The translations under genes and the position numbers were made by a program. A stretch of 62,475 nucleotides of DNA from a bacterium (GTDB lineage Bacteria; Myxococcota_A; UBA9160; UBA6930). How positions within the stretch are numbered: the first letter of the stretch is position 1; each line of letters starts with the position of its first letter. A model generated the notes under the pieces. That model saw only the letters and a list, made by a program, of their open reading frames with translations, made no database searches and was not told where the DNA came from. Below, in pieces: positions 53,555 through 55,382 of the stretch. The stretch spans positions 1 through 62,475 of the forward strand of contig JAAELW010000415.1 in the NCBI GenBank assembly GCA_024226235.1, in the 5' to 3' direction.

Positions 53555-54753
53555 GCGAAAAGGAGCTCCCGCTTCTGGGCGGCATCCGGATCCTCGACCT
53601 CACCCGTGTGGTCGCGGGTCCGTTCGCGACAGCGCTGCTTGCGGACCTCGGAGCTGAGGTCATCAAGGTCGAGAGGCCCGGCACCGGCGACGACTACCGT
53701 TACGGTCCTTCACCCAAGGGCGAAACCTCGCTCTCGTTCCAGAACACCAACCGGGGCAAGCGGTCGATCACTCTCGACATCCGCCAACCCGAAGGGCGCG
53801 AGGTACTGCTTCGCCTGGCCGAGAATGCGGATGCACTGGTCGAGAACTTCCGCGCCGGCTTCCTCGACAAGCACGGGCTCGGCGCGCCAGTGCTCCAGGC
53901 GCGCAATCCGCGCCTGGTCGTCGCATCGCTGTCGGGCTTCGGCCAGACGGGCCCACGTGCCGGTGAGGGGAGCTACGACATCGTCGCCCAGGCCGCCGGC
54001 GGATTGATGGGCATCACGGGTCAGGAGGGTGGTGCGCCGCTGCGCTCTGGCGGGGCGCTGGCCGATTTCGTGGGCGGTCTGTACCTGGCCGTCGGTCTTC
54101 TGGCCGGCCTGCGCGATCGCGATCGCACCGGTCGTGCCCAGGTTCTCGATCTTTCCAATCAGGACGCGATCTTCGCGATCACCGATTCGGCCGCTTCGAT
54201 CTTCGCCAGTATCGGGGTGCCGATGGAGCCGGTCGGAAACCAGCATCCCTTCACCGCCCCCTACGACGCATTTCCTACGACCGACGGCCATGTGGCCATC
54301 GGCAGCGCCAGCAACAAGCTCTTTCGTCAGCTGATGCTGGCGATCGGCCGTCCCGAGCTGGGCTCGGACGAGCGCTTCCGCAGCCACCGGGGCCGCGCTT
54401 CTGGGCGCAAGGAGATCAATGCGATCGTTGCCGGATGGGTTGCCACGCGTAGCTGCGATGAAGTACTCGCAGCTCTCGGGCCCGCGGCAGCCGACGTCCC
54501 ATGCAGCCGGGTTGCGAGCCCGCACGAGCTGCTTCTCGACGAGCAGCTCACCGCCCGCGGCATGATCGAGCGCCACGCACATCCGACCCTTGGCGAGGTC
54601 GTCTTCCACGGCAACCCGCTCCGGTTCAGTGCCTCCTCGCCCCGAGAGCGAGCGCTGGCACCCGACCTGGGGCAAGACAACGCCGCGGTCTTTGCCGAGT
54701 TGGGCCTGGGTGCGAAGGAACTCGAGGAGCTCTCCGAGAAGAAGGTGATCTAG
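53551..54753 (+). CDS. CaiB/BaiF family III CoA-transferase
   Basis: The protein is 400 residues. Family III motifs are GIRILDLTRVVAGPFATALL (11-30), LGAEVIKVERP, NTNRGKRSITLD, and the catalytic Asp in GSYDIVAQAAGG (Asp143). Such enzymes move CoA between acids, for example succinyl-CoA with aromatic or branched acids, or act as alpha-methylacyl-CoA racemases. GTG 53551 overlaps the frdD stop, so it is made in step with fumarate reductase. Succinyl-CoA as donor would link the two activities. The start codon was chosen because the longer upstream frame runs over frdC and frdD. Confidence 0.9.
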   Translation: MSEKELPLLGGIRILDLTRVVAGPFATALLADLGAEVIKVERPGTGDDYRYGPSPKGETSLSFQNTNRGKRSITLDIRQPEGREVLLRLAENADALVENFRAGFLDKHGLGAPVLQARNPRLVVASLSGFGQTGPRAGEGSYDIVAQAAGGLMGITGQEGGAPLRSGGALADFVGGLYLAVGLLAGLRDRDRTGRAQVLDLSNQDAIFAITDSAASIFASIGVPMEPVGNQHPFTAPYDAFPTTDGHVAIGSASNKLFRQLMLAIGRPELGSDERFRSHRGRASGRKEINAIVAGWVATRSCDEVLAALGPAAADVPCSRVASPHELLLDEQLTARGMIERHAHPTLGEVVFHGNPLRFSASSPRERALAPDLGQDNAAVFAELGLGAKELEELSEKKVI

Positions 54754-54809
54754 AAGCCCGGCCGAGAACGGCAACTTCCAGAGCCTCCGCCCGTGTCAAG
54801 AGAAGGCTT

Positions 54810-55328
54810 CTAGCCGTGGAAGATCCAGCCGAGAGTATGCCTTACGACTACGAAGGGCAGCGCGAAGATCGGGATGTGGTGGTGACGGCCAAGGTGGCGG
54901 TGGAAACGGCTCCGAGACTGGAAGCGGTGACCGCAGGGCCCACAGGTGTAGCTGTTGTGGCTCCGTTCGTGGCGGCCCCGGTGGCGGTAGTCGCGTCGTT
55001 CGTGCCGACGGTCGCGATGCCGGGCGTCATGTCGGTCGCCCCGACGGTCGCGGTGGCGGTAGTCGTGTCGGTCGTGTCGGCGGTCGTGATGTCGGGCGTC
55101 GTGTCGGTTGTGTCGACGGTCGCGATGCCGGGTGTCGCGTCGGTCGTGCCGACGGGAGTGATCGCGGTGGTCGCCGCGCGCGCTGCAGTAGTCGTCGTGG
55201 TAGACGACCCGGCTCCGGCGCGAGTGGCGTCGATCACCGTGACCGGCTGACGCGACGGTCGCGGTGAACAGGAAGGCGAGACCGCTGGCGAGGGCCAGGG
55301 CCCGGGTGATGCGATGGGATCGGAACAT
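54810..55328 (-). CDS. Exported His/Arg/Asp-rich protein with a C2H2 zinc-finger motif
   Basis: The protein is 172 residues. A clear Sec signal peptide (1-29, ending VASA) is followed by a low-complexity region (30-125) built from variants of RHDRRD and RHRDRR. The next part, C129-x2-C132-x3-F136-x5-F142-x2-H145-x3-H149, fits the classical C2H2 zinc-finger consensus (Cys-x2-Cys-x12-His-x3-His), followed by HH and a hydrophobic end. AAGGAGGT lies 6-7 bp before ATG 55328, so the gene is real even though the other strand is also open. The His-rich body may bind metals. I know no characterised homologue. Confidence 0.8.
   Translation of the reverse strand: MFRSHRITRALALASGLAFLFTATVASAGHGDRRHSRRSRVVYHDDYCSARGDHRDHSRRHDRRDTRHRDRRHNRHDARHHDRRHDRHDYRHRDRRGDRHDARHRDRRHERRDYRHRGRHERSHNSYTCGPCGHRFQSRSRFHRHLGRHHHIPIFALPFVVVRHTLGWIFHG
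54950..55200. repeat. Low-complexity repeat tract inside the zinc-finger gene
   Basis: Variants of GTCGGTCGTG and CGGTCGCGATG recur with a spacing of about 9-30 bp through this stretch, coding the RHDRRD-type repeats on the minus strand. Such tracts can expand or contract by slippage. Confidence 0.7.
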
Positions 55329-55382
55329 CTCGAGTACCTCCTTGCCCGATCAGACGACAGACATCGTCAGGGCATTCAACCG

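Follow-up and report, generated by a model that had tools for sequence, protein, structure and literature searches.

Exported bacterial proteins with a predicted eukaryotic-type C2H2 zinc finger behind a putative ECF-sigma promoter

The C2H2 zinc finger described in bacteria is of the Ros/MucR type, a DNA-binding regulator with a nine-residue loop (PMC9779718). The ligands of Ros are C79, C82, H92, and H97, the histidine pair being of the H-x4-H form (PMC9779718). The gene analyzed here lies in a window (the whole stretch of DNA under analysis, 62,475 nucleotides) and encodes a small protein, predicted to be exported, that carries a C2H2 pattern near its C terminus. It belongs to a previously unnamed family. 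The fold itself is known; none of the papers found gives a description of the compartment, architecture, tail, or regulation of such a finger family.

The coding sequence occupies positions 54810–55328 of the minus strand (172 amino acids; stop codon at 54810–54812), with an intact open reading frame and boundaries exactly as first proposed, and is supported by homologues and dN/dS. A near-perfect Shine–Dalgarno sequence (AAGGAGGT, 55336–55343, minus strand) lies 7 bases 5′ of the ATG, in agreement with the strong ribosome site of the original prediction, and nearly all homologues have a GGAG-type site. In pairwise comparisons with two congeners, the finger region gave a dN of 0.07–0.11 and a dS of ~1.1; because dN is about one-tenth of dS against the closest congeners, the finger is under purifying selection. 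The gene is convergent with a CoA-transferase III gene and divergent from an acyl-CoA dehydrogenase gene. Homologous loci are often syntenic, with acyl-CoA dehydrogenases upstream and CoA-transferase and succinate-dehydrogenase-type genes downstream; in family f7, a methyltransferase-like gene lies upstream of the finger gene. A functional operon with these neighbors was considered and rejected, as the syntenic genes are metabolically unrelated and give no functional hint. The finger gene is oriented against its neighbors and seems to be transcribed on its own.

Residues 1–28 (55245–55328, minus strand) form a signal peptide, as judged by inspection, with probable cleavage between ASA and GHG. 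By the same inspection, a signal peptide is present in each of the 28 homologues whose 5′ end is complete, with a basic n-region, a hydrophobic core, and mostly an AxA motif; A28 is at least 90% conserved. Export from the cytoplasm, as originally predicted, is almost certain from these features. At least one homologue (L055:80–457, genome G010) has a twin-arginine-type signal (LTRRQALGRSAAGVAAL); if it acts as such, that protein would be exported folded and possibly zinc-loaded. The signal peptide is followed by a low-complexity body of ~94 residues (residues 29–122; 54963–55244, minus strand), composed of 37% Arg, 21% His, and 18% Asp and predicted to be disordered, with an AlphaFold2 pLDDT of ~44–51 throughout. 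Such a His/Arg-rich body had also been foreseen, and it recurs in all 28 complete homologues, which share the layout of signal peptide, body, and finger. Its length ranges from ~40 to 190 residues and its sequence also varies, only the composition being kept. The body contains a lone cysteine, C48 (window 55185–55187), in an H-(G/D)-x-x-C context, which is found in about a dozen homologues (including L049, L053, L056, L065, L068, L070, and L075) and may provide a third metal site or a disulfide-linked dimer.

The finger comprises residues 127–150 (54879–54950, minus strand) with the pattern Y-x-C129-x2-C132-x3-F-x5-F-x2-H145-x4-H150, the sequence here being Y127-T-C129-GP-C132-GHR-F136-QSRSR-F142-HR-H145-LGRH-H150. 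The protein thus has C129, C132, H145, H149, and H150, and H149 had been taken as the second histidine ligand. The homologues correct this assignment: C129, H145, and H150 are invariant (29/29), and C132 is present in 27 of the 29, the other two having His, whereas position 149 is His in only 10. Since it is invariant, unlike H149, H150 is assigned as the second histidine ligand. The corrected spacing, C-x2-C-x12-H-x4-H, is kept in all 29 (27 as C2H2, two with C132 changed to His), and with it the 12-residue eukaryotic-type spacing, as opposed to the nine-residue Ros type. Homologues without the Cys/His pattern, named beforehand as an outcome that would speak against the prediction, did not appear: all 29 have the pattern, with Cys-to-His swaps in two as the only changes. 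These two (L060:3401–3556 and L061:9609–9764) come from different families and represent independent exchanges that give putative CHHH fingers. Position 127 is Tyr or Phe in 28 of 29 homologues, and positions 136 (Phe/Tyr/Trp) and 142 (Phe/Leu/Val) are conserved in all; by its sequence, the hydrophobic core is conserved like that of classical fingers.

When the mature sequence was shuffled 200,000 times, 1% of the shuffles contained the bare C2H2 spacing, and ~1 in 100,000 matched the full consensus including its hydrophobic positions. The sequence is of low complexity and GC-rich, and its valine-rich antisense frame likewise stays open, so that the pattern might be a chance product of a His/Arg-rich frame that is not a gene; on comparative grounds, this idea is already refuted by the 29 homologues, a dN far under dS, and the conserved ribosome sites and promoter. 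Because the C2H2 pattern is conserved in 29 homologues, the alignment indicates that it is real and excludes chance. The antisense frame (54501–55250, plus strand), which runs across the gene, was rejected as a gene; the His/Arg/Asp codon repeats account for it.

The cysteine pair could also be read as a periplasmic thiol–disulfide couple, since C129-G-P-C132 is exactly the CGPC of thioredoxin-like proteins and the predicted location of the protein is extracytosolic. However, no thioredoxin family match was found, the motif varies among homologues (CRPC, CAPC, CKPC, and CNRC), the two C132-to-His exchanges would end redox chemistry and retain a metal ligand, and H145 and H150 are invariant. 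A redox protein is therefore considered very improbable. The CxxC cysteines could become disulfide-bonded if the periplasm is oxidizing.

Positions 138, 140, 141, and 144, which we take to be the base-contacting positions of classical fingers, rank with the most variable ones (entropy of 2.5–3.2 bits in the 29 homologues). With these positions variable and one finger only, the nucleic-acid binding suggested originally is not supported. A related proposal is an extracellular binder of nucleic acids or other polyanions (extracellular DNA, LPS, or polyphosphate) that acts through its body and finger together. The strongly basic body, rich in Arg and His, and the commonness of nucleic-acid binding among C2H2 fingers would suit such a binder, but the variable base-reading positions, the single finger, and the confinement of conservation to the structural core and tail make it decidedly unlikely. 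An envelope role and not DNA reading is probable.

The whole protein gave no meaningful match to Pfam and NCBIfam. The zf-C2H2_4 model matched 12 of 18 members (best E value of 1.3e-4), with 15.6 bits for the present protein against a curated cut-off of 27; where the Pfam scans showed scores, those of all C2H2 models stayed below the curated cut-offs. When 188 genomes of the phylum were scanned in six frames with zf-C2H2_4, the top match was a member of the finger family, and none exceeded the cut-off. Another C2H2-like match in the phylum (genome G127) was rejected as a relative, having no signal peptide and not sharing the layout. The family profile aligned over about positions 5–30 to classical fingers in the PDB, with PRDM9 first and Aart, ZNF568, and others following; the best E value of 4e-21 is a sum over several fingers, and the single fingers of the top chain gave 0.03–0.16.

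Structure prediction, one of the checks originally proposed, gave a β-β-α arrangement for the finger at a pLDDT of ~90. With the full-length alignment, AlphaFold2 placed strands at residues 127–129 and 134–136 and helices at 139–150 and 154–166; the finger blocks had a pLDDT of 90–92, the confidence fell along the second helix, and the remainder was disordered. A model of the isolated domain had the same layout at lower confidence. Foldseek and VIA listed almost only C2H2 fingers, including the H-x4-H finger of ADR1 (1paa), and Ros/MucR was not among their fold lists, which does not speak against such a likeness. The matches are weak (no Foldseek E value below 0.001; VIA Z score of at most 4.1) because the domain is tiny (~30 residues). 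The best VIA match was AFV1p06 (2lvh; Z score of 4.1 over 38 residues at 1.7 Å). The C132-to-His exchanges, which keep a metal ligand, support the predicted zinc site together with the ligand conservation, and a zinc-folded C2H2 domain is very likely from the alignment and the model.

Conservation continues beyond the finger into a C-terminal tail (residues 151–172; 54813–54878, minus strand), which contains the second predicted helix (154–166) and ends in G-W-I-F-H-G. The family form of this end is G-W-[IV]-[FY]-x-G, here G167-W168-I169-F170-x-G172, and hydrophobic residues are conserved at positions 152, 157, and 161 with helix spacing. The original prediction included neither this tail nor H150 as a ligand, nor the ECF-sigma-type promoter described below.

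With the protein as the query (P0001), 22 of 97 related genomes yielded relatives. By a profile of the C-terminal domain, 90 genomes of the class included 29 with the family, and all 29 belong to one order; a stricter threshold applied to 377 genomes of the phylum gave 28, again all in that order, and a wider profile added only two doubtful fragments to the 29 loci. Each genome with the gene has a single copy, and eight families of the order are represented (f1, f2, f3, f5, f6, f7, f9, and f10). The large family f4 showed no finger gene apart from one doubtful fragment. No homologue was found outside the order among the 377 genomes of the phylum, and none in the plasmid collection.

A putative ECF-sigma promoter (TGAATGCCCTGACGATGTCTGTCGTC, 55353–55378, minus strand) precedes the gene, with GAAT as the −35 element, a 17-base spacer, and CGTC as the −10 element. 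GAAT-N16/17-CGTC was found upstream of 24 of 28 homologues, mostly 47–60 bases before the start codon; Markov shuffles gave an expectation of 0.15–0.17 per spacing and less than 1 overall, and the spacings N14 and N15 gave none. The motif has the shape of an ECF-sigma promoter, and its recurrence makes control of the gene by an ECF sigma factor likely. For the genomic search, the extended form and a shifted-spacing control were used: TGAAT-N16/17-CGTCNRA had 44 matches in five congeneric genomes versus 11 at the N20/21 spacing. The count of the plain TGAAT-N16/17-CGTC form (58 in the genome) was rejected as unclear evidence of enrichment, and the shorter GAAT form was not enriched in the window (9 versus 6.1). 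A reversed-pattern control was probably biased by codon use.

The genes 3′ of the motif include two ECF sigma genes and genes for MlaA (in three of the five congeneric genomes), a transglycosylase, an Omp glycine-zipper protein, a cytochrome c, and small exported proteins; some of the 44 matches have no convincing gene behind them. Judged by its composition, the motif-linked set is an envelope-stress regulon. Small exported families without a Pfam match lie behind the motif in at least two congeneric genomes (loci L103 (G000:C46), L219, L221, L235, L239, L253, L259, L243, and L247) and are candidates for further envelope-stress proteins.

One ECF sigma gene (G000:C172:6024–6704) is followed by an overlapping zf-HC2 anti-sigma gene and has the motif in all five congeners; the pair (G000:C172:5925–7492; L155:5925–7492) is a candidate for autoregulation. 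Orthologues of its sigma factor are present, essentially as single copies, in 65 of 79 genomes of the order, some of them from families without the finger. This first sigma gene carries the motif in 9 of the 13 family-f1 genomes examined, and not convincingly in other families. Sigma factor P0002 as a universal controller of the finger genes was not upheld outside f1: in the other families, the main candidate sigma gene lacks the motif and the finger genes keep theirs. P0002 also occurs in f4, a family without the finger. In three of the five congeners, another ECF sigma gene is preceded by TGAAT-N16/17-CGTCGAA (L233, L237, and L250, in G002, G001, and G003, respectively), and because the same motif precedes it, the two ECF factors may recognize a common type of promoter.

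His-rich exported proteins are a usual design for metal buffering, and the body has 11–27% His in every homologue. The protein might accordingly be a periplasmic buffer or store for zinc or another metal, in which the His-rich body is functional and the finger merely an extra site. Against this, the length and sequence of the body are poorly conserved and the finger and tail are kept, metal-transport genes do not recur beside the gene, where acyl-CoA dehydrogenase/CoA-transferase or methyltransferase genes are found instead, and the promoter is of the ECF type. Metal buffering by the body, which like surface attachment was among the functions first suggested, is a real alternative, but we consider the buffer or store rather unlikely as the account of the whole protein.

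Here, we propose that the protein is a periplasmic or outer-membrane-associated, zinc-stapled envelope-stress protein with a docking mini-domain and a basic tether, a reading to which we give a probability of about 60%. When the ECF-sigma envelope-stress regulon is switched on, the gene would be expressed, and the product would be exported through its signal peptide to the periplasm or the outer membrane. The C-terminal ~45 residues would fold around one zinc held by C129, C132, H145, and H150 to form the β-β-α finger, and the second, hydrophobic helix would pack with it and, together with the G-W-I-F-x-G end, complete a mini-domain. This mini-domain would dock on an envelope partner or on the membrane surface. 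The disordered His/Arg/Asp body would serve as a polycationic tether with affinity for metal, which probably covers anionic groups of the envelope, buffers zinc under stress, or does both. A docking domain with a disordered tether fits because the export signal, the metal site and core, and the tail are conserved, and the body only in composition; the specific functions assigned to the docking and the tether are tentative and less likely than not.

There is a slightly better than even chance, in our estimate, that this is the first extracytoplasmic bacterial family built on a eukaryotic-type C2H2 finger, used as a zinc-stapled module for envelope docking or sensing under ECF-sigma stress. If so, bacteria evolved or recruited the classical finger for a task that has nothing to do with DNA. 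A vertically inherited family with the 12-residue loop outside the cytoplasm would show the classical finger as a structural module of the bacterial envelope and would bear independently on the origin of the eukaryotic finger, which is debated. The gene product itself would be a small, probably zinc-dependent envelope-stress protein that can be tested.

AFV1p06 (2lvh), a single C2H2 finger of an archaeal virus, shares with the family a small finger with a C-terminal extension; it is viral and has neither a signal peptide nor a His/Arg body, and the likeness is that of a common small fold only. Ros/MucR shares the bacterial Cys2His2 site, the H-x4-H pair, and an extra helix after the finger helix (predicted here at 154–166), and no Ros/MucR family match was among the matches listed. 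The present family differs in its 12-residue loop (nine in Ros/MucR), its export, and its lineage; Ros/MucR is a cytosolic DNA-binding regulator, whereas the family has signal peptides and variable DNA-contact positions. To our knowledge, no known member of a σE-type regulon has a C2H2 finger; the family shares with the σE-type extracytoplasmic stress regulon the ECF-type promoter, export, and a motif in common with MlaA, transglycosylase, and Omp-like genes. With eukaryotic C2H2 fingers (zf-C2H2/zf-C2H2_4; PRDM9, ZNF568, and ADR1 (1paa)), the family has in common the consensus (Y/F)-x-C-x2-C-x3-F-x5-(F/L)-x2-H-x4-H, the predicted β-β-α fold, and a direct profile alignment to fingers in the PDB. 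Where scores were shown, its members individually fall under the Pfam cut-offs, and they differ from the eukaryotic proteins in having a single extracytoplasmic finger instead of tandem repeats, in lacking a TGEKP linker, in the variability of the base-reading positions, and in a conserved extra C-terminal helix with the GWIFxG tail.
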